DNA of 64,000 bases, taken from NCBI GenBank assembly GCA_025174535.1, contig JALBUN010000038.1, positions 1 to 64,000 of the forward strand, read 5' to 3'. This document shows positions 9,295 through 45,973 of this stretch, piece after piece. This DNA comes from Cantharellus purpuraceus. Its lineage: Eukaryota > Basidiomycota > Agaricomycetes > Cantharellales > Hydnaceae. Under the pieces are notes generated by a model, which worked only from the letters and a program-made list of their open reading frames with translations, ran no database searches and was not told where the DNA came from. The translations under genes and the position numbers were made by a program. Within the stretch, counting starts at the first letter, position 1. Every line of letters begins with the position of its first letter.

Positions 9295-9312
9295 GGAGTT
9301 GATTTAAAAGTC

Positions 9313-9507: not shown

Positions 9508-10049
9508 TATTGTAGAAAATTCTTTCTACTATTAATATTTTTCATACCTTTTACTGTTACAGGGAAACAACACCTCACATTTGTTATCACTTCTGAAAAA
9601 AAACCTTCTGTGATAGCATGATCAAACTCTCTTGTAACAGTTACTATGTAAAACTGGGTGACTTTTCTCGATGTTTGAATGCAAGTTATTGTCATTTCCT
9701 CTAAAGCTCTTTTTCCCTTATTCTTCCTAATCTTTTTATTCAATTGAAAAACTGCTATAGCTCTTGCTATAATCTGCAGTTCTGGATTTATCTGATTTGT
9801 GTTCTCATGTGTAAAAAACAGTATCTCATTATCATTTTTTATAACACACATCTCTATAACATTTCTTGTTATATTTCCCCTCACATTCATAGTGATTTTA
9901 TTATGAGTGATGATTAATCTTTCATCCTTGTCATATTTCATGAGAAAGAGCACTTCTCTGGTAAAATCATTAACCAACGTAGATCCTTCCCTGACTCTAG
10001 TAGATCTATCTAAGTATGTAAAAATTTTCTTGAAGACTCCTTTAAACAT
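9507..10049 (-). CDS. 180-aa element protein, copy A
   Basis: ATG frame starting two bases after the stop of the upstream small acidic frame (TGAAATG arrangement). Sequence blocks include IFTYLDRSTRVREG, INPELQIIARAIAVFQLNK and FYIVTVTREFDHAITEG. It is mixed alpha/beta, soluble and not recognised. Its 3' end is altered: copy C keeps a longer C-terminus plus about 420 bp that are deleted here, while copy C has lost the middle of this gene. Copy B lacks almost all of it. Confidence 0.5.
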   Translation of the reverse strand: MFKGVFKKIFTYLDRSTRVREGSTLVNDFTREVLFLMKYDKDERLIITHNKITMNVRGNITRNVIEMCVIKNDNEILFFTHENTNQINPELQIIARAIAVFQLNKKIRKNKGKRALEEMTITCIQTSRKVTQFYIVTVTREFDHAITEGFFSEVITNVRCCFPVTVKGMKNINSRKNFLQ

Positions 10050-10050
10050 T

Positions 10051-10218
10051 TCACATCATCTTTTTGTAATCAAAACTGAGGATCTCATCATCAATATCTA
10101 AAGTAATATCTCTAAAATCTGTCTCAAAAAACTGTTTAGTCCATTGTGTGTCAACCATTATACCATAATCCCAAAGATCAAGAGAACTCCAATCATTGCA
10201 CTTATTATCTTTACCCAT
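10051..10218 (-). CDS. small Trp/Asp-rich protein, copy A
   Basis: 55-codon frame MGKDNKCNDWSS...SFDYKKMM with a conserved ATG in all three copies. The protein is acidic and rich in Trp, Asp and Phe. Its end depends on an A-run: five A here, six in copy B (61 codons), seven in copy C (54 codons). A change of one base could fuse it with the 180-aa frame that follows. No family recognised. Confidence 0.45.
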   Translation of the reverse strand: MGKDNKCNDWSSLDLWDYGIMVDTQWTKQFFETDFRDITLDIDDEILSFDYKKMM

Positions 10219-10365
10219 GATGTCAATAAAGAAGGATATATAAAATTTATTTCATTTTTTACTAGATATGTGCATAGTTCTGAAGAGCAGAATGGTGAAT
10301 CAAATCAGAATGTTGTAGTAAACATCCATATTTTTATCTAATATTTATAAATTGAATTATATATA

Positions 10366-10793
10366 TTAGGTGTACCAGCCGATTGGATATTATCATATCA
10401 TGGTAATGACGTCGGATGGAAGGTCACCTTGTCAGGAGCAGTTTGATCACATTATCAAAGGACAGCCTTTTGGCTGTGAGGGTTGATAATGATGCACTTA
10501 CTGAGCCTGTGGATGGATGGATTGTGATGTAGAGTGTAGACTTAGAGCTTGGACTTTGACTTTAGAGTGTTGTCTGAAAACTTGTTGATTTATCCCAAAG
10601 GCGAAAACTAGCGCCCTTTATATACAAATTCCCAGGGCACAACGACACAATATGAGGAGCAATTGATGCTATATGATGCAATAAATGCTTATAAAGCCAG
10701 CTGACGAAGCTTGTGATGTTGAACTACTATTGGGTAAATCTTGGAGAAATGAAACGACAGATAGGGACATCATTAGACTGCTCATGGACAGCC
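10366..10793 (-). repeat. remnant of TATA-bearing repeat I in copy A
   Basis: It matches both ends of the ~0.8 kb repeat at 16,171-16,985 and 39,515-40,360, including the CAAAGGACAGCC block and the reverse of TATATAAAAGGGCG, but the middle ~170 bp are deleted. The deletion also removed the RS-rich 3' end of the neighbouring coiled-coil gene. Confidence 0.75.
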
Positions 10794-10796
10794 ATT

Positions 10797-11591
10797 CTAT
10801 CTATTTAGTCTACAAGACTGATCTGAGTCTATAAGTATATAATCTACACCTCTTTTCACTATCTTAAATGTCACCTTTCTGGTACCATTTTCCTGTAACC
10901 TTGTTACCTCCTGTTCTTGTTTTCCAGCCCAGTGATTCATATCAAATTTCCAGTCAACAATCTCAGATATTATTGCTTTATATTTATCACCCTGTTTCTG
11001 AAGTTTATTAATGTCTGTTCCAAGTTCCACTACAGTATCATCTGTTTCTACAATCCACTCATGCACTTCAGATTTCCATTCCACAATGTCTGATATTGTT
11101 GCAATACATCTATTAACCTGTTTCTGAAGTTTATGAATATCTGTTCTATGGTCCAATATAAGATTCTCTGCATTATGTGTATTGACCTGTTGATGAATAT
11201 CTGTTCCATGGTCTGATATTGTGGCAACACACCTATTAACCTGTCTCTGAAGTTTATGAATATCTGTTCCAAATCCTGATACAATATCATTCATTTCACT
11301 CATCCATTCATCTAAATTCTCTTTCCTGTCTGTCAAAGTAGTTATAATTGTATTTTTTTCCTCAACCTGTTTCTTAAGCACCTGAATTTCCTGACTCTGG
11401 GAATTAACCTGTTGTTCAAGTATAGTGATCTGCCTATCCTTTTCACTCATCCAAGACTTGACATTTATAAGATCAGATATTAATTCATCTTTTACTTCCA
11501 TTTGACTTGCCATAGCTTTTATCAGTGCATCATTGTCACTTATCCAGCCTTTGATTGCTTTTATATCTTCAAAGATTTGTGACATTTTCAA
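10797..11591 (-). pseudogene. coiled-coil protein, copy A (C-terminally truncated)
   Basis: 264 codons of the same coiled-coil protein as copy B (17,024-18,139, 371 aa). The heptad-rich part is kept, with units of the type GTDIHKLQRQVNRC repeated three to four times. The frame ends soon after SDQSCRLNR because sequence up to repeat I has been deleted, which removes the RS/DS-rich tail. The coiled coil could still oligomerise, but the basic tail is absent. Confidence 0.75.
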
Positions 11592-12125
11592 ATCCCTCTC
11601 TGCTTATAAAACAGAAATGAAAAAACATAATAATCATTTTTTTCTGAACATTTGATATTTTGTATAGGCAGTAGATATATACATCTTGCTTTCTTAATAA
11701 AATGATTATTATGTTTTTATGTTATAAGCATTATGAAGATGCTCTCTTTTATGCTTCAATGCAAGATAGAGTTTGATAGAAGAGTTAATGATTGGTATAT
11801 ATCTCGGATAGGATCCCTCCATGATTTGTTTCTGAGGTAAGTTCCTTTATAAATATCAAGGTTCCAATCACTGACTTTATACAGATGTACTGATGGCACA
11901 CTTCTGGAACAGAAATTAACAGAGTTATATACTAGTATGGAGCAGGATCATTATTTTCCACCACTTTGGATGGAAAATCTGATGGTATTGCACCCTAAAG
12001 TACGAGGGATAGTCATACAGTCTCATGTTAGAACAAGATTATCTACCACTATGCCCTAACTAAGTTACTTTGTTTTAAAAATAGCTTCACTGCATTAAAG
12101 GTGTTTGTTTCCAAGACTTTCCTAA
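11592..12125. other. non-coding internal end of copy A
   Basis: About 530 bp between the coiled-coil start codon and repeat R, nearly identical in copies B (18,140-18,672) and C (37,871-38,403). No open frame is conserved. It ends TTTCCTAA|GACGC. A leader or promoter for the coiled-coil gene is the most likely role. Confidence 0.6.
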
Positions 12126-12690
12126 GACGCTTGTTCAGAAATACAACAAATACGTATATACAACCTATTTTCCTCAAATTTTATACAATACACTTCAATT
12201 CAAACTTATTTTCATATTTCAACATGATTCTCAAATTTTACACAATATACTAGATTAAAACATATTGTGATATTTTGGCATAATTCTCAAAAATAATTCT
12301 TTTTTCCCCATTTAGTGGTGGCAACTCTCTTGAAGGAACATCCAAATATCATTGATTCTTTCTTATACAATACTTATAACATAATTTGAACTATCTTTAA
12401 TCCCCACCTGGTATTTGTATATCTAAATACCCTATATAATACCAATTATATTAATACATACATTCCTATTATATCCATGTAAATGATTATGTTCATCTCA
12501 ACCAAATATCTTATCTTTTAAAGTTTATTAAAATATAGAATATATGTTTATATTTATGAAAATTTCACACATCCGAAATCTTTTAAGATATCCAAATTGT
12601 AACTCCCTGGCTTTATGTATCATTGAAATTCTGATGTATATCTCATATACATTAGAATATTGTATACTGACATGATTCCGAACAAGCGTC
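12126..12690 (-). repeat. terminal repeat R shared by copies A and B
   Basis: 565 bp from GACGCTTGTTCAG to GAACAAGCGTC. It is in direct orientation with the R copies at 6,151 and 18,673 and is flanked by internal sequence on both sides, with no target duplication. Near one end it holds a perfect 13-bp hairpin in copy C; here one arm is slightly changed (GATGTATATCTCATATACATTAG). Confidence 0.88.
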
Positions 12691-12769
12691 TAGGGAGGTC
12701 ATTTTAAAAACAAAAATCATCACCTTATATCATCAACAAGCTTCTTTCTCCATAGATTTAGACATGCCA

Positions 12770-13267
12770 TTATGAATTCTTATCTTCATTGGTATGTCTG
12801 GACACTGTCCAACACAGCAAAGCCAATAGTATACCAATACTAGTTATGTAGATCATGTGCACTGTACGGCCAAGATATAGTTTCTGCCTATTTATATCTG
12901 GGCCTGGCTGTCTAACAAACGCCTGATTCACATGTGTGGTTATAATGTGTGCATATCCAGAGGTTGGATCAGAACCACTTACAAATCTGTTGGTTTTATT
13001 CAGAAAACCTGCAAATTCTGCTACAAAAATAGGATCACTTTCATTATAGCCTATTTTATCAGGTTGTAGACCAAGAAATACATATTTGATATGAGGATAC
13101 TTTGAAAGCTGGAACACTTCACCTTCAGCATATGAACGGTCCAGATACTGCCCAAAGGGGTACCAGTCACACGTTGTACAATTAGCTAGCCGGTGTGGAT
13201 TGCTGTGAAAAGGCTTTTGGTAAAACTGTTGATTGAGACGCTGTTTCAGTAATGGATCAGTCTCCAT
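12770..13267 (-). CDS. tail-anchored membrane protein, copy B
   Basis: Intact 165-aa frame, matching copy C. The N-terminal ~135 residues are soluble, with an NCTTCDWYPFG block near residue 29 and potential N-glycosylation sequons that would not be used if the N-terminus is cytosolic. A single hydrophobic helix lies at about residues 138-155, then a 10-residue charged tail. That pattern predicts a tail-anchored protein of ER or other membranes. It follows the transposase gene with a ~57 bp gap. No homologous family is recognised; carriage by a DNA transposon is unusual. Confidence 0.75.
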   Translation of the reverse strand: METDPLLKQRLNQQFYQKPFHSNPHRLANCTTCDWYPFGQYLDRSYAEGEVFQLSKYPHIKYVFLGLQPDKIGYNESDPIFVAEFAGFLNKTNRFVSGSDPTSGYAHIITTHVNQAFVRQPGPDINRQKLYLGRTVHMIYITSIGILLALLCWTVSRHTNEDKNS

Positions 13268-13323
13268 AGATACCTATAAGTATAAAACATACAAATATTC
13301 AATTTTATTCTGGGAAAAAAAAT

Positions 13324-14800
13324 TTACAGTTGAATGTAGCATAGGTATACAATAATATTATTACTATTGTCTTTCCAATACTCTTTAATACATTCTGTAG
13401 ATTTAAAGCTTGATGTTGCTTCCCAAGTTTTCTCTGCATAACATTTCCATTTAACTAAATATTCTACGTACTTTCCTTTTTCTTTGCCTTATTATTTGTT
13501 CTACTTCATTTTCAGTCTCATAATGCATCTCCACATCATACTCACATCTTTCTAATAGTCGTTGTTGAGATTGAGTCATCTTGTCAACATCTTCTGCTCT
13601 TTCCAGTAATGATCTGGGTGGCTCAATATCTGGGTCCTCTTCCTCAGGGTAATCAAAATATTGTTCACACCATTTTTCATGATAAGGGGATGGTTTGATC
13701 TTACGTAGTTCTACAAATTTCTTAATATTCCATAATAGACATGCTACCTTTAATTCCAGATTAAAGACAGCAGGATTTGTAGTTCTAATAGATCTCTTAT
13801 TATCAAATTTTTCAAACAATCTTGCAAACCCTCCAAAGAATGCTTCTACTGTTGAACGAAAGGCACCAAACTTCTTATTAAAAATCTTTTCTTCAGGTTT
13901 AAGTTCAACATTTTTTGGCTTCCGAAAAGGATAAAAGAAGTTCTTAGGCTTTAATATACTTGCCTTTACTACTTCTGGAATAGCAGATGGATAAGCTCCA
14001 TCAAAGCCTATCTGATCATTCTTATCTATTTTATTCCATACAGCCATCTCTACAAACATTTTTGCATCAGGATTTAGTTTACATGCCAATGAAGGTGAGG
14101 TGAATAGAACCATTTGATTAATGTCAATGCATACTTGAGTACGAAATCCTGCCTTTTTAAATTTATATGAGTACCCCTCTTCAGATGCCGATCCAATCAA
14201 AATTCCTCTTGTATCATGACCATCAAGAAGTAATGTCACTGATTCCATTTTTGGAGGATTCTTTATAAGAGCTGATAATATCCTTATTATTATATTTGAG
14301 AACATTGTACGCAGTGAATCAGTAACTTGTTTATCTAGATCAAAGTTAAGATGATGCAGACGACCATAAAATTCCTTATGAACATCATAAAAGCTACTTG
14401 ATGGCATGAAATTTCCTATTTCTTCATAAGTAGGACCTTTGAGTAGATGATATAGTACTAACAAGCCTTTTTCTATCTCTCTATAAGGTGTAGAATGTTC
14501 TTCAACTGAAAACAATACCACAAGAAAGAAAAATACTGGTATTGGTCCAAGCTTGTTATATACTACTTTTTTTACATCATCCATATCATTCATATCTTTT
14601 AGTTTTGTTCTATGATATTTTTTGTGTTCTAAGACAGGCCACTTTGTGTATAGAAAATTCCAATGATTGTCCATCAACTTATTATATGCTCTGTCCCTTT
14701 GATCATTCCACATTTTAAGTTGCTGAAGCTCTTTTTCTTCTTTATCTTTTTGCTCTTTCTCTTTTTGCTCCTTTGTGCGTTTTTGCTGGTCTGAGGGCAT
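13324..14800 (-). CDS. DDE transposase (IS5/PIF-Harbinger type), copy B, with chromodomain in +1 frame
   Basis: The 449-codon frame (13,451-14,800) begins with a Lys/Glu/Gln-rich coiled segment and has a helix-turn-helix-like stretch near residues 124-147 (PTYEEIGNFMPSSSFYD). The catalytic triad fits DDE_Tnp_4/HARBI1-like nucleases: D193 in LLLDGHDTR, D267 in GFDGAYPSAI and E319 in FRSTVEAFFGG. The frame runs into a chromodomain (NEVEQIIRQRKRK) and then stops, but the rest of the chromodomain (VEYLVKWKCYAEKTWEA) continues in the +1 frame to a stop at 13,324. A frameshift near AAAAAGGAAAG, splicing or an old indel would be needed to join them. The catalytic domain looks intact. Confidence 0.85.
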
Positions 14801-14896
14801 TTTGACTAAGATACTCTTATATTACAGTAAAACAAAAATATGTTCATTTTTTTGATAATTGAATTTTAAATTAAATAATATTTATTCTATGAAGCT
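14801..14896. promoter_or_regulatory. divergent promoter region, copy B
   Basis: 96 AT-rich bases between the divergent start codons of the transposase and the 216-aa gene, nearly identical to copies A and C apart from the length of one T-run. Confidence 0.5.
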
Positions 14897-15588
14897 ATGT
14901 TGTCTGTCTCTAAGCAAGTTGTTCGTAAAATATCTACTGTCTTTGTTAAAAAAGAACCAGAGGATGATGAAAATCCTTTGTATATAGACTCTGACACCAT
15001 CTACATAAAATTCAGATTAAGAAATCCCCCAAAGGACTTCTTTCCAGCTGGATCGGTTTCTCAGGAAAGAGATAAAACACCAGAAGCACTGTACAATAAG
15101 ATGATTGAAAGGGCAATGAAATAAGTAATTCAACCTGGATTCAACAAAATCATTGTATGTCAAGTCTGCAAACCATGCAACAGGATAATCTGCCTAGTTG
15201 TAATATTTCTATTGCTAGAGAAACTGGCAAGAAGTGTGATATTTCTATTGCTGGGGAAACTTGTAAGAACTGTGATGTGTATAACAATTTGGTTACATCA
15301 ATGGTTGTTGCATTGAAACAACAGCAGAGAGTTTTCAAGAAAAGTAAAATCACAATCTATGGTATGATCATAACTAAGGATGGTAGGTTAAAATTATATG
15401 AAACCACCAATAACAATCAGGGTGTTTCAATTGTTGTATATCCTTCCTCTGGATACAGCATAGAAGCTCAGTTTGAAGAGTGTTCTAATGCTATTGACAT
15501 TATATTCCAAAGTATAAGAAATCAGATGTTCAAAGAATCCTCATTTCAAGATTTGAACTTTTGTTCACACAACAATAAGTACCATTAG
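14897..15588 (+). pseudogene. 216-aa element protein, copy B (frameshifted and 3'-fused)
   Basis: One A is lost at about 15,110 (GAAAGGG instead of GAAAAGGG), which stops the frame at codon 75. A second frame resumes at 15,157 with the normal C-terminal part. At the 3' end a deletion joins TCCTCA directly to TTTCAAG of the downstream cysteine-rich frame, so the native stop is lost. Copy B thus lacks a working version of this protein. Confidence 0.8.
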
Positions 15589-15676
15589 TATCATGATGAG
15601 TATTTTTGAATGTTCAGAGCTCTTAGGACATTTAATATCCTTACAATCTGTAACTACAGATGTAGTAGTTATATGA

Positions 15677-15862
15677 TTACTCCTTTAAACATTTCACATC
15701 ATCTTTTTTGTAATCAAAACTGAGGATCTCATCATCAATATCTAAAGTAATATCTCTAAAATCTGTCTCAAAAAACTGTTTAGTCCATTGTGTGTCAACC
15801 ATTATACCATAATCCCAAAGATCACGAGAACTCCAATCATTGCACTTCTTATCTTTACCCAT
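15677..15862 (-). CDS. small Trp/Asp-rich protein, copy B
   Basis: 61-codon version of the protein also found at 10,051-10,218 and 40,625-40,789. Six A's in the homopolymer keep the frame open through DDVKCLKE before a stop created by a deletion that removed the following gene. Function unknown. Confidence 0.4.
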   Translation of the reverse strand: MGKDKKCNDWSSRDLWDYGIMVDTQWTKQFFETDFRDITLDIDDEILSFDYKKDDVKCLKE

Positions 15863-16170
15863 GATGTCAATAAAGAAGGATATATAAAATTTATTTCATT
15901 TTTTACTAGATATGTGCATAGTTCTGAAGAGCAGAATGGTGAATCAAATCAGAATGTTGTAGTAAACATCCATATTTTTATCTAATATTTATAAATTGAA
16001 TTATATATATTTTCTAAAGTTGTCAATAGCCAGATGCATGCACTCGTTCTGAATACTACAACAAAGTCCCATACAGAATTCCCTGTCCTTTCATCTATCA
16101 TTCTTCTACCAGTTCCTTGTTTCCTATCTTGCCAGTCTTTCATTCCAAATTCTTTGCTGCATAGCTAAAT

Positions 16171-16985
16171 AGGTGTACCAGCCGATTGGATATTATCATA
16201 TCATGGTAATGACGTCGGATGGAAGGTCACCTTGTCAGGAGCAGTTTGATCACATTATCAAAGGACAGCCTTTTGGCTGTGAGGGTTGATAATGATGCAC
16301 TTACTGAGCAGACAGTAGGTGAGACTTTGCAGCGGCATGGTGTACCAGATAATTGAATCGTTGTCCTTGAGCAGCCCGATGATGTCACTCGGTGTCGGTT
16401 CGCTTAAGGAATAGATCCTAGCAAACAGGCGGTGTGTAGCGCAGTTGTTCAGCACTCCAAAGATCAATCAGGGTGAGGGGTAAGTAACAGGGAAGTGGGA
16501 TAGTGCTCTGTGGTTGGATGGGGATGGGAGCTAAAGGTCGGTCCCAATGGCTGATCGTGCTCTGTGACTGAATGACAATGTGGAGCCCGGTTGGAAGGTA
16601 CGCGAAAGCTGGTTTCAGGAGAAGCAACCTCTCGGTGGCGGAGGGAAATCTGATCGTTGAACCAAGGTGTTTTACCTCAGTGTAGAGATGATGGATTGTG
16701 ATGTAGAGTGTAGACTTAGAGCTTGGACTTTGACTTTAGTGCGTTGGCTGAAAACTTGTTTTTTGATTCCAAAGGCGAAAACAAGCGCCCTTTTATATAC
16801 AAATTCCCAGGGCACAATGACACAATATGAGGAGCAAATGATGCAAGAAATGCTGATCAAGCCAGCTGATGAAGCGTGTGAAGTTGAGCTACTAAAGGAA
16901 ATCATGGAGAAATGAAACGACAGATAGGGACATCATTAGACTGCTCATGGACAGCCATTCACTCCAAGGTGACCTTGTCAGAAGC
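16171..16985 (-). repeat. TATA-bearing repeat I in copy B
   Basis: About 0.8 kb shared with 39,515-40,360, and its core with 30,650-31,246. On the minus strand it holds TATATAAAAGGGCG and ends of the form TGTCG...CGACA, which resembles an LTR promoter region. Diverged inverted copies of TGAGCAGTCTAATGATGTCC flank that core. It lies between the coiled-coil gene and the small acidic gene and has no conserved protein. It could be an LTR or MITE captured by the element, or a promoter segment; its class is not settled. Confidence 0.6.
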
Positions 16986-17023
16986 ATGGAATGCCTTGTA
17001 TCCTGCGTCTTCGGAGGCTTACA

Positions 17024-18139
17024 TTACTGGGTTCTCCCTCTACATCTTTTTCTTGAACTAGGAATTTGAGATTGATCAGAGTCTGAATCAGATTGATCAG
17101 AGTCTGAATCAGATTGATCAGAGTCTGAATCAGATCGTTCCTTAGACCTTTTTTCTTGATGCCTTGAACTAGGAGTTTGAGATCGTTCCTTAGACCTTTT
17201 TTCTTGATGCCTTGAACCTTGAGTCATTCCTTGCTTCCATGTTTGAAAATTAATCCTATTACCATCTACGTCATATGATGACATTTCATTCTTCCTAGTA
17301 TATATTGTAGATAGTTTTCTAGGCTCACCATTTATGAATAATTCCATTCTATTTAGTCTACAAGACTGATCTGAGTCTATAAGTATATAGTCTACACCTC
17401 TTTTCACTATCTTAAATGTCACCTTTCTGGTACCATTTTCCTGTAACCTTGTTACCTCCTGTTCTTGTTTTCCAGCCCAGTGATTCATATCAAATTTCCA
17501 GTCAACAATCTCAGATATTATTGCTTTATATTTATCACCCTGTTTCTGAAGTTTATTAATGTCTGTTCCAAGTTCCACTACAGTATCATCTGTTTCTACA
17601 ATCCACTCATGCACTTCAGATTTCCATTCCACAATGTCTGATATTGTTGCAATACATCTATTAACCTGTTTCTGAAGTTTATAAATATCTGTTCTATAGT
17701 CCAATATAAGATTCTCTGCATTATGTGTATTGACCTGTTGATGAATATCTGTTCCATGGTCTGATATTGTGGCAACACACCTATTAACCTGTCTCTGAAG
17801 TTTATGAATAACTGTTCCAAATCCTGATACAACATCATTCATTTCACTCACCCGTTTATCTAAATTCTCTTTCCTGTATGTCAAAGTAGTTATAATTGTA
17901 TTTTTTTCCTCAACCTGTTTCTTAAGCACCTGAATTTCCTGACTCTGGGAATTAACCTGTTGTTCAAGTATAGTGATCTGCCTATCCTTTTCACTCATCC
18001 AAGACTTGACATTTATAAGATCAGATATTAATTCATCTTTTACTTCCATTTGACTTGCCATAGCTTTTATCAGTGCATCATTGTCACTTATCCAGCCTTT
18101 GATTGCTTTTATATCTTCAAAGATTTGTGGCATTTTCAA
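17024..18139 (-). CDS. coiled-coil protein with RS/DS-rich tail, copy B (intact)
   Basis: 371 codons from ATG. Residues ~1-245 are heptad-rich coiled coil with recurring GTDIHKLQRQVNRC-like units and periodic tryptophans (EWKSEVHEW, DWKFDMNHW). Residues ~255-305 form a basic, probably globular part (TFKIVKRGVDYILIDSD). The tail has two RHQEKRSKERS units and several SDSDSDQ units (21-bp repeats), like splicing-factor RS domains, and ends RKRCRGRTQ. Such tails bind nucleic acid or direct proteins to the nucleus. Transcription is away from repeat R. No family is recognised; a structural or DNA-organising role for the element is only a guess. Confidence 0.75.
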   Translation of the reverse strand: MKMPQIFEDIKAIKGWISDNDALIKAMASQMEVKDELISDLINVKSWMSEKDRQITILEQQVNSQSQEIQVLKKQVEEKNTIITTLTYRKENLDKRVSEMNDVVSGFGTVIHKLQRQVNRCVATISDHGTDIHQQVNTHNAENLILDYRTDIYKLQKQVNRCIATISDIVEWKSEVHEWIVETDDTVVELGTDINKLQKQGDKYKAIISEIVDWKFDMNHWAGKQEQEVTRLQENGTRKVTFKIVKRGVDYILIDSDQSCRLNRMELFINGEPRKLSTIYTRKNEMSSYDVDGNRINFQTWKQGMTQGSRHQEKRSKERSQTPSSRHQEKRSKERSDSDSDQSDSDSDQSDSDSDQSQIPSSRKRCRGRTQ

Positions 18140-18672
18140 ATCCCTCTCTGCTTATAAAACAGAAATGAAAAAACATAATAATCATTTTTTCTGAACATTT
18201 GATATTTTGTATAGGCAGTAGATATATACATCTTGCTTTCTTAATAAAATGATTATTATGTTTTTATGTTATAAGCATTATGAAGATGCTCTCTTTTATG
18301 CTTCAATGCAAGATAGAGTTTGATAGAAGAGTTAATGATTGGTATATATCTCGGATAGGATCCCTCCATGATTTGTTTCTGAGGTAAGTTCCTTTATAAA
18401 TATCAAGGTTCCAATCACTGACTTTATACAGATGTACTGATGGCACACTTCTGGAACAGAAATTAACAGAGTTATATACTAGTATGGAGCAGGATCATTA
18501 TTTTCCACCACTTTGGATGGAAAATCTGATGGTATTGCACCCTAAAGTATGAGGGATAGTCATACAGTCTTATGTTAGAACAAGATTATCTACCACTATG
18601 CCCTAACTAAGTTACTTTGTTTTAAAAATAGCTTCACTGCATTAAAGGTGTTTGTTTCCAAGACTTTCCTAA
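18140..18672. other. non-coding internal end of copy B
   Basis: Same sequence as 11,592-12,125 and 37,871-38,403, with a few substitutions. It lies upstream of the coiled-coil gene and is its probable leader or promoter. No gene seen. Confidence 0.6.
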
Positions 18673-19236
18673 GACGCTTATTCAGAAATACAACAAATAC
18701 ATATGTACAACCTATTTTCCTCAAATTTTATACAATACACTTCAATTCAAACTTATTTTCATATTTCAACATGATTCTCAAATTTTACACAATATACTAG
18801 ATTAAAACATATTGTGATATTTTGGCATAATTCTCAAAAATAATTGTTTTTCCCCATTTAGTGGTGGCAACTCTCTTGAAGGAACATCCAAATATCATTG
18901 ATTCTTTCTTATACAATACTTGTAACATAATTTGAACTATCTTTAATCCCCACCTGGTATTTGTATATCTAAATACCCTATATAATACCAATTATATTCA
19001 TATATACATTCCTATTATATCCATGTAAATGATTATGTTCATCTCAACCAAATATCTTATCTTTTAAAGTTTATTAAAATATAGAATATATGTTTATATT
19101 TATGAAAATTTCACACATCTGAAATCTTTTAAGATATCCAAATTGTAACTCCCTGGCTTTATGTATCATTGAAAATCTGATGTATATCTCCTATACATCA
19201 GAATATTGTATACTGACATGATTCCGAACAAGCGTC
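18673..19236 (-). repeat. terminal repeat R, outer end of copy B
   Basis: 564 bp, direct repeat of 12,126-12,690. It ends GAACAAGCGTC|TATGG, at the junction with the interrupted gypsy LTR, and is the right-hand end of the composite insertion. Confidence 0.88.
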
Positions 19237-36420: not shown

Positions 36421-36842
36421 TTCAGCTTATGTGCTGCACCTTCACTAATACTGGTGTCCAAGACTTCAGAGACAGAGTATGACTTAAAGTTGGAACAGAC
36501 TTAGGACCTAGACATGATTCAATATTCAAACTGGGAAATGAAGTCCCTAGTTGTACAACTTAAATACATATTTGAAATCTAATAATAATTACTCCAGTGA
36601 TGGGTCTCTGAGGCCTATGGCCTTACATGAGTATGTCTGAGTCCAATAGGGATAGATGTCCAGGTTCCTATGGTGGTGCTGATGCATCAATTGGAACTGG
36701 AGATGGATGGGTGGGAACAGCAATGATGATTGGACAGACAGGTGGGATGTGATGGTTTCCATATGGAGTATAGATTTCATTTGCACAGGGATTTGCATAG
36801 GTCAGATGGAGATCTGGGCATTAATGAATATGGTTGTGGCAT
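36421..36842 (-). repeat. inverted, 5'-truncated gypsy LTR fragment
   Basis: Begins TTCAGCTTATGTGCTGCACC, mid-LTR, and ends near AATGAATATGGTTGTGGCA, a mutated version of the LTR start. Orientation is opposite to the adjacent TE2 3' LTR, so the pair forms a large imperfect palindrome. Confidence 0.82.
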
Positions 36843-36921: not shown

Positions 36922-37304
36922 TGTTACACTCTGAGTCCATTGGAGGGTTGGATCTTCAGGGTCAGGGTCAGAGTCAAAGTTGTGGTGGTCAGAATGGACT
37001 TGAAGCTTATGTGCTATGCCTTCACTAATACCTGTATCCAAGATTTCAGAGATGGAGTATGACTTAGATAGTTCAAATCAGACTTGAGACCTAGACATGA
37101 TTCAATATTTGAACTGGAGAATAAAGTCCTCAGTTGTATGGCTTAAATATATATTTGAAATCTAATAATTACTCCAGTGATGGATCTCTGAGTATGTCCA
37201 AGTCTGACAGAGACAGATGTCTGGGTTCCTATGGTGATACTGATGCACCAATTCAGAACTGGAGACAGATGTGCAGAAACAGCAATGATAGTTGGACAGA
37301 CTAA
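36922..37304 (-). repeat. third gypsy LTR, part before copy C
   Basis: Starts TGTTACACTCTGAGTCC and follows the LTR to AGACTAA, where copy C is inserted; the remainder is at 45,053-45,134. Total about 465 bp, older than the TE2 LTRs. Confidence 0.8.
37302..37304. other. target-site duplication TAA (partner 45,053-45,055)
   Basis: Left flank AGACTAA, right flank TAATGGAG. The corresponding LTR site at 19,310-19,320 reads AGACTAAATGG, so a 3-bp TAA duplication is the simplest reading. TWA duplications are typical of PIF/Harbinger. Confidence 0.75.
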
Positions 37305-37870
37305 GACGCTTGTTCGGAATCATGTCAGTATACAATATTCTGATGTATATGAGATATACATCAGAATTTCAATGATACATAAAGCCAGGGAGTTACAATT
37401 TGGATATCTTAAAAGATTTCGGATGTGTGAAATTTTCATAAATATAAACATATATTCTATATTTTAATAAACTTTAAAAGATAAGATATTTGGTTGAGAT
37501 GAACATAATCATTTACATGGATATAATAGGAATGTATATATGAATATAATTGGTATTATATAGGGTATTTAGATATACAAATACCAGGTGGGGATTAAAG
37601 ATAGTTCAAATTATGTTATAAGTATTGTATAAGAAAGAATCAATGATATTTGGATGTTCCTTCAAGAGAGTTGCCACCACTAAATCAGGAAAAAAAGAAT
37701 TATTTTTGAGAATTATGCCAAAATATCAAAATATGTTTTAATCTAGTATATTGTGTAAAATTTGAGAATCATGTTGAAATATGAAAATAAGTTTGAATTG
37801 AAGTGTATTGTATAAAATTTGAGGAAAATAGGTTGTACATACGTATTTGTTGTATTTCTGAATAAGCGTC
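37305..37870 (+). repeat. terminal repeat R, left end of copy C
   Basis: 566 bp from GACGCTTGTTCGG to GAATAAGCGTC. It contains a perfect 13-bp hairpin at 37,338-37,366 (TTCTGATGTATAT, loop GAG). It is followed by internal TTAGGAAAG. AT-rich, no open frame. Confidence 0.9.
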
Positions 37871-38403
37871 TTAGGAAAGTCTTGGAAACAAACACCTTTA
37901 ATGCAGTGAAGCTATTTTTAAAACAAAGTAACTTAGTTAGGGCATAGTGGTAGATAATCTTGTTCTAACATGAGACTGTATGACTATCCCTCGTACTTTA
38001 GGGTGCAATACCATCAGATTTTCCATCCAAAGTGGTGGAAAATAATGATCCTGCTCCATACTAGTATATAACTCTGTTAATTTCTGTTCCAGAAGTGTGC
38101 CATCAGTACATCTGTATAAAGTCAGTGATTGGAACCTTGATATTTATAAAGGAACTTACCTCAGAAACAAATCATGGAGGGATCCTATCCGAGATATATA
38201 CCAATCATTAACTCTTCTATCAAACTCTATCTTGCATTGAAGCATAAAAGAGAGCATCTTCATAATGCTTATAACATAAAAACATAATAATCATTTTATT
38301 AAGAAAGCAAGATGTATATATCTACTGCCTATACAAAATATCAAATGTTCAGAAAAAATGATTATTATGTTTTTTCATTTCTGTTTTATAAGCAGAGAGG
38401 GAT
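37871..38403. other. non-coding leader of copy C
   Basis: 533 bp conserved in copies A and B, without a conserved frame, immediately upstream of the coiled-coil ATG. The likely promoter and 5' untranslated region of that gene. A short inverted motif (AATGATTATTATG / CATAATAATCATT) occurs at 38,285-38,370. Confidence 0.55.
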
Positions 38404-39497
38404 TTGAAAATGCCACAAATCTTTGAAGATATAAAAGCAATCAAAGGCTGGATAAGTGACAATGATGCACTGATAAAAGCTATGGCAAGTCAAATGGAAG
38501 TAAAAGATGAATTAATATCTGATCTTATAAATGTCAAGTCTTGGATGAGTGAAAAGGATAGGCAGATCACTATGCTTGAACAACAGGTTAATTCCCAGAG
38601 TCAGGAAATTCAGGTGCTTAAGAAACAGGTTGAGGAAAAAATACAATTATAACTACTTTGACAGACAGGAAAGAGAATTTAGATGAATGGATGAGTGAAA
38701 TGAATGATATTGTATCAGGATTTGGAACAGATATTCATAAACTTCAGAGACAGGTTAATAGGTGTGTTGCCACAATATCAGACCATGGAACAGATATTCA
38801 TCAACAGGTCAATACACATAATGCAGAGAATCTTATATTGGACTATAGAACAGATATTCATAAACTTCAGAAACAGGTTAATAGATGTATTGCAACAATA
38901 TCAGACATTGTGGAATGGAAATCTGAAGTGCATGAGTGGATTGTAGAAACAGATGATACTGTAGTGGAACTTGGAACAGACATTAATAAACTTCAGAAAC
39001 AGGGTGATAAATATAAAGCAATAATATCTGAGATTGTTGACTGGAAATTTGATATGAATCACTGGGCTGGAAAACAAGAACAGGAGGTAACAAGGTTACA
39101 GGAAAATGGCACCAGAAAGGTGACATTTAAGATAGTGAAAAGAGGTGTAGACTATATACTTATAGACTCAGATCAGTCTTGTAGACTAAATAGAATGGAA
39201 TTATTCATAAATGGTGAGCCTAGAAAACTATCTACAATATATACTAGAAAGAATGAAATGTCATCATATGACGTAGATGGTAATAGGATTAATTTTCAAA
39301 CATGGAAGCAAGGAATGACTCAAGGTTTAAGGCATCAAGAAAAAAGGTCTAATGAACGATCTCAAACTCCTAGTTCAAGGCATCAAGAAAAAAGGTCTAA
39401 GGAACGATCTGATTCAGACTCTGATCAATCTGATTCAGACTCTGATCAATCTCAAATTCCTAGTTCAAGAAAAAGATGTAGAGGGAGAACCCAGTAA
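38404..39497 (+). pseudogene. coiled-coil protein with RS/DS tail, copy C (frameshifted)
   Basis: Same protein as 17,024-18,139. An A-run of six instead of seven at about 38,636 ends the first frame at codon 82 (38,404-38,652); the remainder is open from 38,658 to 39,497. The DS-rich tail has fewer 21-bp units than copy B, so the repeat number is variable. If the A-run slips during transcription or translation, some product could still form. Confidence 0.8.
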
Positions 39498-39514
39498 TGT
39501 AAGCCTCCGAAGAC

Positions 39515-40360
39515 GTAGGATACAAGGTCACCTTGGAGTGAATGGCTGTCCATGAGCAGTCTAATGATGTCCCTATCTGTCGTTTCATTTCTCCATGATT
39601 TCCCCTTTAGTAGCTCAACTTCACACGCTTTGTCAGCTGGCTTGATCAGCATTTCTTGCATCATTTGCTCCTCATATTGTGTCGTTGTGCCCTGGGAATT
39701 TGTATATAAAAGGGCGCTAGTTTTCGCCTTTGGAATCAATCAACAAGTTTTCAGCCAACGCTCTAAAGTCAAAGTCCAAGCTCTAAGTCTACACTCTACA
39801 TCACAATCCATCATCTCTACACTGAGGTAAAACACCTTGGTTCAACAATCAGATTTCCCTCCGCCACCGAGAGGTTGCTTCTCCTGAAACCAGCTTTCGC
39901 GTACCTCCCAACCGGGCTCCGCATTGTCATCCAGTCACAGAGCACGATCAGCCATCGGGACCGACCTTTTGCTCCCATCCTCATCCAACCACAGAGCACT
40001 ATCCCACTTCCCTGTTACGTACCCCTCTCCCTGATTGATCTTTGGAGTGCTGAACAACTGCGTTACACACCGTCTGCTTGCTAGGACCATTGCACGCAGG
40101 CTTATAGGATCTATTCCATAAGCGAACCGACACCGAGTGACATCATCGGGCTGCTCAAGGACAACGATTCAATTATCTGGTACACCATGCCGCTGCAAAG
40201 TCTCACCTACTGTCTGCTCAGTAAGTGCATCATTATCAACCCTCACAGCCAAAAGGCTGTCCTTTGATAATGTGATCAAACTGCTCCTGACAAGGTGACC
40301 TTCCATCCGACGTCATTACCATGATATGATAATATCCAATCGGCTGGTACACCTATTTAG
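39515..40360 (+). repeat. TATA-bearing repeat I in copy C
   Basis: Shared with copy B and, for the core, TE2. TATATAAAAGGGCG at 39,703. The core is flanked by inverted GTCCATGAGCAGTCTAATG-like and CATCATCGGGCTGCTCAAGG sequences (about 39,548 and 40,145), and beyond these by near-palindromic AAGGTSACCTT motifs. No protein is conserved. Class unresolved. Confidence 0.6.
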
Positions 40361-40624
40361 CTATGCAGCAAAGAATTTGGAATGAAAGACTGGCAAGATA
40401 GGAAACAAGGAACTGGTAGAAGAATGATAGATGAAAGGACAGGGAATTCTGTATGGGACTTTGTTGTAGTATTCAGAACGAGTGCATGCATCTGGCTATT
40501 GACAACTTTAGAAAATATATATAATTCAATTTATAAATATTAGATAAAAATATGGACATTCTGCTCTTCAGAACTATGCACATATCTAGTAAATAAATTT
40601 TATATATCCTTCTTTATTGACATC

Positions 40625-40789
40625 ATGGGTAAAGATAAGAAGTGCAATGATTGGAGTTCTCATGATCTTTGGGATTATGGTATAATGGTTGACACACAAT
40701 GGACTAAACAGTTTTTTGAGACAGATTTTAGAGATATTACTTTAGATACTGATGATGAGATCCTCAGTTTTGATTACAAAAAAAGATGA
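40625..40789 (+). CDS. small Trp/Asp-rich protein, copy C
   Basis: 54 codons from MGKDKKCNDWSSHDL to SFDYKKR. Seven A's in the homopolymer cause the early TGA here. Same start in all copies. Unknown function. Confidence 0.45.
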   Translation: MGKDKKCNDWSSHDLWDYGIMVDTQWTKQFFETDFRDITLDTDDEILSFDYKKR

Positions 40790-40872
40790 TGTGAAATGTT
40801 TAAAGGAGTCTTCAAGAAAATTTTTTACATACTTAGATAAGGAAGAATAAGGGAAAAAGTGCTTTAGAGGAA

Positions 40873-41118
40873 ATGACAATACCTTGCATTCAAACATCGA
40901 GAAAAGTCCCCCAGTTTTACCTAGTAACTGTTACAAGAGAGCTTGATCATGCTATCACAGAAGGGTTGTTTTCAGAAGTGATAACAAATGTAAGGTGTTG
41001 TTTCCCTGTAACAGTAACAGGTATGAAACATATTAATAGTAGAAAGAATGTTCTACAGTGTTTTGAAGCATTTAAGAAGTTTGTAGATATACTTGATAGG
41101 AAATTAGATGAGAAATAA
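40873..41118 (+). pseudogene. C-terminal remnant of the 180-aa element gene, copy C
   Basis: 81 codons matching the 3' part of 9,507-10,049 (FYLVTVTRELDHAITEG, NVRCCFPVTVTGM), but with a longer C-terminus (FEAFKKFVDILDRKLDEK) that copy A has lost. The upstream middle of the gene (~290 bp) is deleted at about 40,842. Together A and C suggest the ancestral gene was longer than either. Confidence 0.6.
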
Positions 41119-41156
41119 TGAGTTTTGAAAATTAATATATAATAACCAGAGACACC

Positions 41157-41336
41157 ATGTTGAATATACCCGAGATTGGTGATAAGGTATCATTTATCAA
41201 TGCAAGAACACAAATGACAGTGACAGGTATTGTTACATTAGTAACTGGCACTTTGTCAGATGACACTTTGCTAATAACTGTTACTTATGATGACAATGAG
41301 ATTCAGCTACCACTACGTGCACTACAACAAGTATAA
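41157..41336 (+). CDS. 59-aa protein found only in copy C
   Basis: ATG frame MLNIPEIGDKVSFINARTQM... ending LPLRALQQV, then TAA. The alternating polar/hydrophobic pattern with GDKVSF near the start resembles a small SH3-like or KOW-like beta barrel, but this is only a shape resemblance. The region is deleted in copies A and B, so no second copy is available to test conservation. It lies between two other element genes on the same strand. Confidence 0.45.
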   Translation: MLNIPEIGDKVSFINARTQMTVTGIVTLVTGTLSDDTLLITVTYDDNEIQLPLRALQQV

Positions 41337-41419
41337 GATAAATCAGATAAGTGAATATGCAATATTTTTATTCACTCAAATGAAGGCATGTGTGGTGATA
41401 GTGAAAAATTCAAATTACT

Positions 41420-41611
41420 TGGAAGTGCAATCATATAACTACTACATCTGTAGTTACAGATTGTAAGGATATTAAATGTCCTAAGAGCTCTGAACATTCA
41501 AAAAATACTCATCATGATACTAATGGTACTTATTGTTGTGTGAACAAAAGTTCAAATCTTGAAATTATCCAAGTGAAAATAGATGAAAAATGTTGTGAGT
41601 GTAGAAACTAG
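41420..41611 (+). CDS. small cysteine-rich segment, copy C
   Basis: Same C-rich segment as 9,313-9,507 (DCKDIKCPKSSEH...KCCECRN, stop TAG 41,609). There is an in-frame stop just upstream and no ATG, so it may be a 3' exon; the upstream ATG at 41,385 is in another frame. It is convergent with the 216-aa gene. Confidence 0.3.
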   Translation, partial: WKCNHITTTSVVTDCKDIKCPKSSEHSKNTHHDTNGTYCCVNKSSNLEIIQVKIDEKCCECRN

Positions 41612-41629
41612 GACTTTTAAATCAACTCC

Positions 41630-42280
41630 TTATGAGGATTCTTTGAACATCTGATTTCTTATACTTTGGAATATAATGTCAATAGCATTAGAACACTCTT
41701 CAAACTGAGCTTCTATGCTGTATCCAGAGGAAGGATATACAACAATTGAAACACCCTGATTGTTATTGGTGGTTTCATATAATTTTAACCTACCATCCTT
41801 AGTTATGATCATACCATAGATTGTGATTTTACTTTTCTTGAAAACTCTCTGCTGTTGTTTCAATGCAACAACCATTGACGTAACCAAATTGTTATACACA
41901 TCACAGTTCTTACAAGTTTCCCCAGCAATAGAAATATCACACTTCTTGCCAGTTTCTCTAGCAATAGAAATATTACAACTAGGCAGATTATCCTGTTGCA
42001 TGGTTTGCAGACTTGACATACAATGATTTTGTTGAATCCAGGTTGAATTACTTATTTCATTGCCCTTTTCAATCATCTTATTGTACAGTGCTTCTGGTGT
42101 TTTATCTCTTTCCTGAGAAACCGATCCAGCTGGAAAGAAGTCCTTTGGGGGATTTCTTAATCTGAATTTTATGTAGATGGTGTCAGAGTCTATATACAAA
42201 GGATTTTCATCATCCTCTGGTTCTTTTTTAACAAAGACAGTAGATATTTTACGAACAACTTGCTTAGAGACAGACAACAT
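41630..42280 (-). CDS. 216-aa element protein, copy C (intact)
   Basis: Same protein as 8,644-9,294. Basic N-terminus, VKKEPEDDE sumoylation-like motif, Cys-containing repeat (CNISIARETGKKCD / CDISIAGETCKNCD), and a C-terminal alpha/beta part. Divergent from the transposase with 96 bp between starts, which suggests co-regulation. A role as accessory to the transposase is inferred only from position. Confidence 0.7.
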   Translation of the reverse strand: MLSVSKQVVRKISTVFVKKEPEDDENPLYIDSDTIYIKFRLRNPPKDFFPAGSVSQERDKTPEALYNKMIEKGNEISNSTWIQQNHCMSSLQTMQQDNLPSCNISIARETGKKCDISIAGETCKNCDVYNNLVTSMVVALKQQQRVFKKSKITIYGMIITKDGRLKLYETTNNNQGVSIVVYPSSGYSIEAQFEECSNAIDIIFQSIRNQMFKESS

Positions 42281-42376
42281 AGCTTCATAGAATAAATATT
42301 ATTTAATTTAAAATTCAATTATCAAAAAAATGAACATATTTTTGTTTTACTGTAATATAAGAGTATCTTAGTCAAA
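42281..42376. promoter_or_regulatory. divergent promoter region, copy C
   Basis: 96 bp between the 216-aa gene and the transposase, AT-rich, conserved in three copies at almost every base. Any bidirectional regulatory sites must lie here or inside the 5' coding parts. Confidence 0.55.
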
Positions 42377-43853
42377 ATGCCCTCAGACCAGCAAAAACGC
42401 ACAAAGGAGCAAAAAGAGAAAGAGCAAAAAGAGAAAGAAGAAAAAGAGCTTCAGCAACTTAAAATGTGGAATGATCAAAGGGACAGAGCATATAATAAGT
42501 TGATGGACAATCATTGGAATTTTCTATACACAAAGTGGCCTGTCTTAGAACACAAAAAATATCATAGAACAAAACTAAAAGATATGAATGACATGGATGA
42601 TGTAAAAAAAGTAGTATATAACAAGCTTGGACCAATACCAGTATTTTTCTTTCTTGTGGTATTGTTTTCAGTTGAAGAACATTCTACACCTTATAGAGAG
42701 ATAGAAAAAGGCTTGTTAGTACTATATCATCTACTCAAAGGTCCTACTTATGAAGAAATAGGAAATTTCATGCCATCAAGTAGCTTTTATGATGTTCATA
42801 AGGAATTTTATGGTCGTCTGCATCATCTTAACTTTGATCTAGATAAACAAGTTACTGATTCACTGCGTACAATGTTCTCAAATATAATAATAAGGATATT
42901 ATCAGCTCTTATAAAGAATCCTCCAAAAATGGAATCAGTGACATTACTTCTTGATGGTCATGATACAAGAGGAATTTTGATTGGATCGACATCTGAAGAG
43001 GGGTACTCACATAAATTTAAAAAGGCAGGATTTCGTACTCAAGTATGCATTGACATTAATCAAATGGTTCTATTCACCTCACCTTCATTGGCATGTAAAC
43101 TAAATCCTGATGCAAAAATGTTTGTAGAGATGGCTGTATGGAATAAAATAGATAAGAATGATCAGATAGGCTTTGATGGAGCTTATCCATCTGCTATTCC
43201 AGAAGTAGTAAAGGCAAGTATATTAAAGCCTAAGAACTTCTTTTATCCTTTTCGGAAGCCAAAAAATGTTGAACTTAAACCTGAAGAAAAGATTTTTAAT
43301 AAGAAGTTTGGTGCCTTTCGTTCAACAGTAGAAGCATTCTTTGGAGGGTTTGCAATATTGTTTGAAAAATTTGATAATAAGAGATCTATTAGAACTACAA
43401 ATCCTGCTGTCTTTAATCTGGAATTAAAGGTAGCATGTCTATTATGGAATATTAAGAAATTTGTAGAACTACGTAAGATCAAACCATCCCCTTATCATGA
43501 AAAATGGTGTGAACAATATTTTGATTACCCTGAGGAAGAGGACCCAGATATTGAGCCACCCAGATCATTACTGGAAAGAGCAGAAGATGTTGACAAGATG
43601 ACTCTATCTCAACAACGACTATTAGAAAGATGTGAGTATGATGTGGAGATGCATTATGAGACTGAAAATGAAGTAGAACAAATAATAAGGCAAAGAAAAA
43701 GGAAAGTACGTAGAATATTTAGTTAAATGGAAATGTTATGCAGAGAAAACTTGGGAAGCAACATCAAGCTTTAAATCTACAGAATGTATTAAAGAGTATT
43801 GGAAAGACAATAGTAATAATATTATTGTATACCTATGCTACATTCAACTGTAA
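42377..43853 (+). CDS. DDE transposase (IS5/PIF-Harbinger type) with +1-frame chromodomain, copy C
   Basis: 449-codon frame 42,377-43,726 with D193 (LLLDGHDTRG), D267 (GFDGAYPSAI) and E319 (FRSTVEAFFGG), plus a conserved FNKKFGAFR lead-in, as in DDE_Tnp_4/HARBI1 nucleases. Such enzymes cut and paste element DNA and make 3-bp target duplications, matching the TAA seen here. The chromodomain starts in frame (NEVEQIIRQRKRK) and continues in the +1 frame (GKYVEYLVKWKCYAEKTWEA, ECIKEYWKDN) to TAA 43,853. The switch lies at about 43,695-43,706, in AAAAAGGAAAGTACG. Only A-to-T and Y-to-H type changes distinguish it from copy B. Probably the active source in this window. Confidence 0.86.
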
Positions 43854-43909
43854 ATTTTTTTTCCCAGAATAAAATTGAATATTTGTATGTTTTATACTTA
43901 TAGGTATCT

Positions 43910-44407
43910 ATGGAGACTGATCCATTACTGAAACAGCGTCTCAATCAACAGTTTTACCAAAAGCCTTTTCACAGCAATCCACACCGGCTAGCTAATTGTA
44001 CAACATGTGACTGGTACCCCTTTGGGCAGTATCTGGACCGTTCATATGCTGAAGGTGAAGTGTTCCAGCTTTCAAAGTATCCTCATATCAAATATGTATT
44101 TCTTGGTCTACAACCTGATAAAATAGGCTATAATGAAAGTGATCCTATTTTTGTAGCAGAATTTGCAGGTTTTCTGAATAAAACCAACAGATTTGTAAGT
44201 GGTTCTGATCCAACCTCTGGATATGCACACATTATAACCACACATGTGAATCAGGCGTTTGTTAGACAGCCAGGCCCAGATATAAATAGGCAGAAACTAT
44301 ATCTTGGCCGTACAGTGCACATGATCTACATAACTAGTATTGGTATACTATTGGCTTTGCTGTGTTGGACAGTGTCCAGACATACCAATGAAGATAAGAA
44401 TTCATAA
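43910..44407 (+). CDS. tail-anchored membrane protein, copy C
   Basis: 165 aa, matching copy B. Single hydrophobic helix at residues ~138-155 near the C-terminus, charged tail SRHTNEDKNS. It starts 57 bp after the chromodomain stop. Upstream TTATAGGTATCTATG could be a 3' splice site (TATAG|), so splicing from the transposase transcript is possible. Conservation of the full frame in three copies supports function. Confidence 0.75.
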   Translation: METDPLLKQRLNQQFYQKPFHSNPHRLANCTTCDWYPFGQYLDRSYAEGEVFQLSKYPHIKYVFLGLQPDKIGYNESDPIFVAEFAGFLNKTNRFVSGSDPTSGYAHIITTHVNQAFVRQPGPDINRQKLYLGRTVHMIYITSIGILLALLCWTVSRHTNEDKNS

Positions 44408-44486
44408 TGGCATGTCTAAATCTATGGAGAAAGAAGCTTGTTGATGATATAAGGTGATGATTTTTGTTTTTAAAATGACCCCCCTA

Positions 44487-45052
44487 GACGCTTGTTCGGA
44501 ATCATGTCAGTATACAATATTCTGATGTATATGAGATATACATCAGAATTTCAATGATACATAAAGCCAGGGAGTTACAATTTGGATATCTTAAAAGATT
44601 TCGGATGTGTGAAATTTTCATAAATATAAACATATATTCTATATTTTAATAAACTTTAAAAGATAAGATATTTGGTTGAGATGAACATAATTATTTACAT
44701 GGATATAATAGGAATGTATATATGAATATAATTGGTATTATATAGGGTATTTAGATATACAAATACCAGGTGGGGATTAAAGATAGTTCAAATTATGTTA
44801 TAAGTATTGTATAAGAAAGAATCAATGATATTTGGATGTTCCTTCAAGAGAGTTGCCACCACTAAATCAGGAAAAAAAGAATTATTTTTGAGAATTATGC
44901 CAAAATATCAAAATATGTTTTAATCTAGTATATTGTGTAAAATTTGAGAATCATGTTGAAATATGAAAATAAGTTTGAATTGAAGTGTATTGTATAAAAT
45001 TTGAGGAAAATAGGTTGTACATACGTATTTGTTGTATTTCTGAATAAGCGTC
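44487..45052 (+). repeat. terminal repeat R, right end of copy C
   Basis: 566 bp, direct repeat of 37,305-37,870 with about one visible substitution (ATAATTATTT versus ATAATCATTT). It ends GAATAAGCGTC|TAATGG. Confidence 0.9.
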
Positions 45053-45134
45053 TAATGGAGATGTGACAGTTTCCAAATGGAGTATAGATTTCATATGTGC
45101 AGGGATCCAGGTGTTAATGAATATAGTCATAACA
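45053..45134 (-). repeat. third gypsy LTR, part after copy C
   Basis: TAATGGAGATGTGACAG... to ATAGTCATAACA, the LTR terminus. Continues 36,922-37,304. Confidence 0.8.
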
Positions 45135-45469: not shown

Positions 45470-45973
45470 GACACTTGTTTAGAATGATGTCATTATACAA
45501 TATTCTGATGTATATGAGATATACATCAGAATTTCAATGATAAATAAGGCCAGGGAGTTATAATTTGGATATCTTAAAAGATTTTAGATGTCTGAAATTT
45601 TCATAAATATGAACATATATTCTATATTTTAATGAACTTTACAAGATAAGATCTTGTTGTGGATGAACATAACTGTTTATATGAATATAACAGTAATGTA
45701 TGTATTAATATAATTGGTATTATATAGGATATTTAGATATACAAATACCAGATGGGGATTAAAGATAATTCAAATTATGTTACAAGTATTGTATAAGAAA
45801 ATCTGAATGATATTTGGATGTTCCCTCAATGGAGTTGCCACCAGTAAATGAGGAAAAAAGAATTATTTTTGAGAATTATGCCAAAATATTAAAATATGTT
45901 TTAATCTAGTATATTGTATAAAATTTGAGGAAATGGGTTGTATATACATATTTGATGTTTCTGAACAGGCATC
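45470..45973 (+). repeat. solo terminal repeat R, diverged
   Basis: 504 bp clearly related to R (same hairpin GATGTATATGAGATATACATC, same TACCAGATGGGGATTAAAGATA block) with degenerate ends GACACTTGTTTAG and CTGAACAGGCATC. It is flanked by TTA on both sides (45,467-45,469 and 45,974-45,976), a TWA duplication. So R either moves alone as a MITE or remains after recombination between direct repeats. Confidence 0.8.

Follow-up and report, generated by a model that had tools for sequence, protein, structure and literature searches.

Related systems

The closest described counterpart of the element reported here is KolobokP, an animal DNA transposon of the Kolobok superfamily in which an interior (INT) is flanked by long terminal direct repeats (LTDRs), an LTDR-INT-LTDR layout regarded by its authors as unlike that of any other DNA transposon (Kojima and Bao, 2022; PMC9587614). 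According to that paper, the LTDRs measure about 450 or 660 bases and have inverted ends of 11-18 bases, the interior contains a transposase and an accessory gene, the duplications are of 3-5 bases depending on the family, a His-Me nuclease is present, and solo repeats with duplications as well as (LTDR-INT)n-LTDR multimers occur. In one family, many copies have one repeat excised (LTDR-INT, INT-LTDR). The authors proposed integration of a circle into solo repeats and also named IS26 (PMC9587614). Here, we describe an element at positions 37305-45052 of a 64,000-nucleotide window (the whole stretch analysed, part of contig JALBUN010000038.1, hereafter C38) from Cantharellus purpuraceus. It shares with KolobokP the LTDR-INT-LTDR layout, the inverted ends of each repeat, the solo repeats and the multimers. 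Because its superfamily differs, it does not belong to KolobokP, and the likeness is one of architecture only.

PIF/Harbinger transposons usually have short inverted repeats and two genes. The window element has in common with them a DDE_Tnp_4 transposase with a D, D, E triad and a 3-base TWA-type duplication, but its repeats are long and direct, its genes number about six, and most of its transposase homologues carry a chromodomain. A further parallel is offered by IS26/IS6-type translocatable units and bacterial composite transposons, where a circle with one repeat enters beside a resident repeat to give repeat-cargo-repeat. In those systems the transposase is encoded in the repeat, whereas here its gene lies in the interior. 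Moreover, two different repeats stay distinct in the conservative reaction of IS26, whereas both repeats of the window element are alike. A literature search, mostly at the level of titles and abstracts and with few subscription journals, found no Harbinger-type or fungal element described as having terminal direct repeats, and met the name KolobokP in PMC9587614 only. The first-pass annotation of the window, made from the sequence alone, knew of no eukaryotic family with this layout; KolobokP is such a family.

Architecture and copies of the element

The two repeats, R1 and R2, are 566 bases long, differ by one substitution and enclose an interior (I) of 6616 bases. Each R starts with GACGCTTGTTC and ends with GAATAAGCGTC, which form an 11-base inverted repeat (10/11 matching); the extremities are GAC..GTC and not the TG..CA of long terminal repeat (LTR) retrotransposons. 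TAA is found at both outer ends. The target sits in a local tandem duplication whose uninserted paralogue aligns across the site once one TAA is removed, the triplet at the insertion point having diverged to AGG. The outline given by the first-pass annotation (566-bp direct repeats, a 6.6 kb interior, TAA outside) is therefore correct. At the inner flanks, TTA follows R1 and CTA precedes R2, a pattern that would fit R having inserted long ago at an interior site similar to its targets, with one base changed since. A 31-base palindrome close to the 5' end of R persists even in the diverged R of the window (45502-45532) and may be a break or binding site.

The 40.15-Mb assembly (50 contigs) was searched with a pattern of 28 bases taken from the 5' end of R (at most three mismatches), which occurs at 493 places, against 0 for the reversed pattern used as a control. 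R/interior junctions were found at 59 (left) and 57 (right) places. Searched alone, the interior ends gave 59 left and 58 right places, the extra right end belonging to an old copy on contig C23. All 59 left ends and 57 of the 58 right ends adjoin a recognisable R, and the C23 end adjoins a diverged one. Genome-wide, no recognisable interior end lacks R, although more diverged ends would escape the patterns used. Copies with R at both ends, which the first-pass annotation had proposed to look for, are thus the rule, and interiors devoid of flanking R, which it held to speak against its view, were not encountered. Copies with a single repeat, known from one KolobokP family, were not seen here either. 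Since about 490 R 5' ends face about 58 elements, R outside elements predominates (about 380 R 5' ends).

At the fetched loci, the outer triplets are equal in 29 of 33 non-tandem pairs and in 26 of 33 solo R. The first-pass annotation was right in seeing a DDE element with LTR-like direct repeats and 3-base outer duplications. The target preference is CTWAG, a palindrome (55 sites); the duplication is TAA or TTA in 16/29 elements and 12/26 solo R, the others being other, mostly AT-rich, triplets. The 33 pairs, drawn from the roughly 58 elements, leave aside tandem pairs, unfetched elements and R that were untyped or cut by the fetched stretch (L014, L018, L022/L023, L025, L085/L086 and L104/L105 among them). 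They also leave aside L066, whose R1 was typed as solo because its junction is altered (its repeats differ by 5 substitutions and 5 gap columns, with TTA on both sides). The solo count excludes L012 and L066. Tandem arrays number at least three, on C38 (in the window), C44 and C45. The R flanks at L022, L102, C38, L065 and L067 correspond to a very numerous repeat, which is a recurrent target, since unrelated R insertions occupy the same position in it. It had been proposed that the transposing unit was either the whole element or a composite of two R modules around a cargo. The composite logic holds, R having inverted ends of its own, lying mostly outside elements and usually showing its own duplication; neither alternative predicts the separate histories of R and interior presented below.

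Divergence of the repeats and of the interior

The two repeats of one element are separated by a median of one substitution and are identical in 12 of 33 cases (identical pairs had also been listed as worth seeking), as against a median of 11 substitutions across elements. None of 20000 random matchings of R1 with R2 gave a mean as low as that observed, and the partner of R1 is its closest R2, ties included, in 26/33 elements. Such likeness is what characterises LTR pairs. Proximity alone does not account for it, since three non-element pairs of same-strand R located about 7 kb apart stay different (8, 5, and 25 substitutions).

The interiors behave otherwise. In the 18 elements fetched in full, which include one unit of the window dimer, divergence is 0.36% in the right part of the interior (2850 bases) and 0.56% in the left part (1550 bases), versus 2.27% in R. 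The nearest neighbour of an element by its interior is 3 to 23 substitutions away in R. For instance, the interiors of L027 and L015 diverge by 0.14% and 0.06% and their R by 18 substitutions, R1 being identical to R2 in each. Because the interiors are so close while R diverges, and R1 nevertheless resembles R2 inside elements, R and the interior have different genealogies. R and interior distances are not significantly correlated (r 0.19 and 0.07). R is mosaic: the 33 elements yield 31 R haplotypes, and the four-gamete test, applied to element R1, fails for 158 of 190 informative site pairs. In 6/33 elements, R1 and R2 share variants absent from the other sampled R (14 variants, of which 6 are clustered in L046 and 4 are in L015). 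No such test of R versus interior genealogies was noticed in the available parts of PMC9587614.

The tandem arrays and a locus present twice give a second view. In the window dimer (R-I-R-I-R, ATA at both outer ends), a comparison over 384 columns separates the outer R by one substitution and a 10-base deletion, and the middle R from each of them by 7 differences. In the C45 array, all three R are nearly alike, and it is uninformative. The flank of the C38 dimer is the same as that of an insertion on contig C36 over 600/600 bases, and both outer flanks agree. The right outer R of C36 and C38 differ by 0 substitutions, have a 10-base deletion in common and share at position 245 a base otherwise unseen among 115 aligned R; the left outer R are 3 substitutions and 2 gap columns apart. 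C36 and C38 therefore carry the same insertion, one locus being present twice, as haplotypes or as a duplication. C36 is a monomer, with one interior, and C38 a dimer, with two. In a comparison of 501 bases, the C36 interior has a change in common with L048 and lacks two changes present in both C38 interiors, and its transposase type (tblastn) is unlike that of C38. Since the outer R are orthologous and the C36 interior is unlike both C38 interiors, interiors differ between fixed outer R.

Possible mechanisms

The reading that we favour, to which we give a probability of about 0.5, is that of a composite DNA transposon of PIF/Harbinger type with an LTR-like ("long terminal direct repeat") layout, whose interior cassette enters and leaves resident R. 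R is the unit with transposon ends, with its inverted termini, CTWAG targets and 3-base duplications, and the interior, located between two R, encodes the transposase along with the accessory genes. An I+R circle would be released when R1 recombines with R2, and a solo R would be left behind. The circle would then re-enter a resident R elsewhere by recombination, in a manner resembling gap repair, so that the resident R sequence ends on both sides. In parallel, the transposase would spread R, and possibly R-I-R, to new sites. We infer the circle, the gap repair and the initiating enzyme; integration of a broken circle by gap repair is known from yeast plasmid work.

Several observations weigh against this cassette mechanism. 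No circle was seen, one assembly without reads being at hand. The proximity controls number three pairs only. The distance matrices are weakly informative, since even left and right interiors correlate poorly (r 0.24, p 0.08); this being hardly better than the R/interior correlation, the genealogy argument rests on divergence levels. The interior difference at C36 corresponds to 501 bases (3 substitutions from one C38 interior, 3 and a gap from the other) and to tblastn types. Eight of the 33 pairs are at least 4 substitutions apart, five of them with matching duplications (L035, L079/L080, L083/L084, L092/L093, L094/L095). In 35 pairs, tandem ones included, 66 of the 91 within-pair differences are polymorphisms common to other R and not private mutations. 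Private variants amount to 1.06 per solo R versus 0.42 pair-private variants per element, which equal ages would not give. A middle R unlike the outer ones, as in the window dimer, is not expected from gap repair alone. Finally, the strong mosaicism of R implies that ectopic conversion is frequent and real, and it could itself alter R.

This last point leads to gene conversion, the main rival, which we hold to be unlikely but to deserve serious attention. The element would be an ordinary composite, the whole R-I-R being cut and pasted via its outer ends, with conversion keeping R1 and R2 alike and ectopic conversion with outside R keeping R diverse. The mosaic structure of R in solos as well as elements, the prevalence of common polymorphisms among R1-R2 differences, arranged in some pairs as tracts (L083, L094), and the mostly equal outer duplications all agree with it. 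On the other hand, the three non-element pairs of similar spacing have not been homogenised, and in the window dimer it is the outer R, twice as distant from one another as from the middle R, that are most alike. Conversion inside elements would also have to outpace conversion by hundreds of other R.

Replicative integration appears less probable still. An I+R circle would integrate at a new target through a cointegrate, its single R being replicated into an identical pair with a new 3-base duplication. This would account for identical R1 and R2, for the outer duplications and for the window heterodimer with its matching outer R and odd middle R. However, R and interior would then move jointly, against their unequal divergence in the 18 elements, and the circle would have to change its R before every insertion; to our knowledge, cointegrates by Harbinger-type enzymes are not established. 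As to a derivative of an LTR retrotransposon (LARD- or TRIM-like) that has captured genes and is moved by reverse transcription in trans, it is very improbable: near-identical direct repeats inside elements, solo repeats and tandem arrays would suit it, but a Pfam scan of six interior open reading frames (ORFs) gave no reverse transcriptase match, no tRNA-primer or polypurine site adjoining the repeats was seen by eye, and the 11-base inverted ends without TG..CA, the 3-base duplications and the element's own DDE_Tnp_4 transposase all oppose it.

Genes of the interior

The interior contains about six genes (A, B, C, E, F, and G; Table 1), fewer than the eight or so first announced; A and B are broken in the window copy. 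Gene lengths were counted in 23 fetched interiors. Gene A is a long ORF in other copies, such as that at 17024-18139 of the window (minus strand, 371 amino acids, aa), and is shortened to 80 aa in 10/23 interiors. Its SDSDQ repeat is a minisatellite inside the element, of very variable length, the ORF reaching 509 aa in L018. The stretch at 39571-40134 was rejected as an element gene: it matches stretches that a Gypsy element of the window also carries at its end, and a solo LTR is its most likely identity. It is missing from some copies (e.g., L056, L030, L035, L068). Gene B is intact (256 aa) in 4/23 interiors (L030, L035, L048, L068). Its predicted fold best matches mitoribosomal proteins and, second and more weakly, PD-(D/E)XK nucleases, whereas a His-Me nuclease is reported for KolobokP; homologues come from metagenomes and from Ephemerocybe angulata. 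Pfam scans gave no His-Me finger nuclease match in A, B, C, E and G, and no Myb match, as for a Myb/SANT-like second gene, in the interior ORFs other than F. Gene C has 59 aa in all 20 copies, of the 23 interiors, where its marker peptide was found. Gene G has 165 aa in 21/23 interiors, and a homologue search for it found none.

The assignment of gene F to the IS5/PIF-Harbinger type by the first-pass annotation is well founded. The window protein was aligned with 24 of the 65 homologues found. The catalytic D193, D267 and E319 are invariant in these 25 sequences, all of which match PF13359 (DDE_Tnp_4), the window copy with 21.3 bits, under the 24.8 cut-off. No Kolobok-type transposase is listed among the Pfam matches of the 25 members, no scan having been aimed at the C/DxxH signature. 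The homologues are mostly metagenomic; the named ones come from Apophysomyces, Rhizomucor, Mortierella, Actinomortierella and Thamnidium, which we take to be Mucoromycota. Together with the homologues of gene B and with features of the Gypsy genes in the window, they point to a fungal host, probably related to mushrooms. Gene F has 449 aa in 5/23 interiors and 444 aa in one, with 12 full-length transposase matches without stops genome-wide. Several broken types recur at many sites, which suggests mobilisation in trans, a count weakened by the shared ancestry of a few breaks. A chromodomain is matched in 21 of the 25 aligned sequences, in most as part of the transposase. Here, its coding stretch follows gene F in the +1 frame, without stops, in 23/23 compared copies, and in the old copy L109 (C23:1090700-1093900) it is a separate open ORF; this arrangement may be explained by a loss that was inherited or by programmed +1 frameshifting. 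Between L109 and the window, synonymous divergence (dS) is 0.12 for gene G and 0.26 for the transposase. Since gene G is the less diverged, interiors may be mosaic too.

Table 1. Positions of the element, its parts and related features in the window.
Feature	Position	Strand	Remark
Tandem dimer R(18673-19236)-I-R(12126-12690)-I-R(6151-6524, 5' truncated)	6151..19236	-	ATA at both outer ends
Tandem paralogue of target without insertion (empty site)	36498..36792	+	
Outer 3-base target duplication TAA, left	37302..37304	.	Sequence and empty paralogue
R1, direct repeat of 566 bases bounded by its own 11-base terminal inverted repeats	37305..37870	+	
31-base imperfect palindrome in R1	37337..37367	.	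90% complementary; R2 counterpart 44519-44549
Gene A, coiled-coil protein with SDSDQ repeat tail	38410..39497	+	Frame change interrupts window copy
Probable Gypsy solo LTR inserted in interior	39571..40134	.	Not element gene
Gene B, remnant of 256-aa gene	40625..41118	+	
Gene C, 59-aa ORF	41157..41336	+	
Gene E, 216-aa protein	41630..42280	-	Full length in 21/23 interiors
Gene F, 449-aa DDE_Tnp_4 (PIF/Harbinger-like) transposase	42377..43726	+	
Chromodomain coding stretch	43689..43853	+	+1 frame relative to gene F
Gene G, 165-aa protein	43910..44407	+	C-terminal segment hydrophobic (by eye)
R2, direct repeat, 1 substitution versus R1	44487..45052	+	
Outer 3-base target duplication TAA, right	45053..45055	.	
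Old diverged solo R, TTA on both sides	45470..45966	+	

Other features of the window

The regions at 3.2-5.9 kb and 27.4-31.2 kb presumably correspond to Gypsy-type retrotransposon genes, partly degraded. At 34130-35820 lies a highly repetitive coding stretch rich in E and R, in which both strands have long open frames. Positions 54600-60000 hold a repeat-rich gene of a large family, the best other copy of which is on contig C32 (99%); the fetched C32 stretch is not allelic to this region.

Significance

With this element, LTR-like direct repeats are seen in what looks like a second lineage of DDE transposons, unrelated to KolobokP and from another superfamily and probably another kingdom. An LTR-like layout in DDE transposons is then, as far as the literature search shows, not a one-off. 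It can be tentatively proposed, at somewhat less than even odds, that the element is two-tiered: R would spread and seed hundreds of docking sites, and the transposase cassette would home between them while copying the resident R, hence the LTR-like look. The layout would then have arisen twice independently, in the Kolobok elements of animals and in a Harbinger-type element, for the same reason. In a 40-Mb genome with about 58 elements and about 380 R outside them, the question posed by KolobokP, namely how paired repeats are kept alike and rebuilt, becomes testable by means of haplotypes. If the favoured cassette mechanism is true, dating by repeat identity would give the time of entry of the cassette and not that of the arrival of the repeat.

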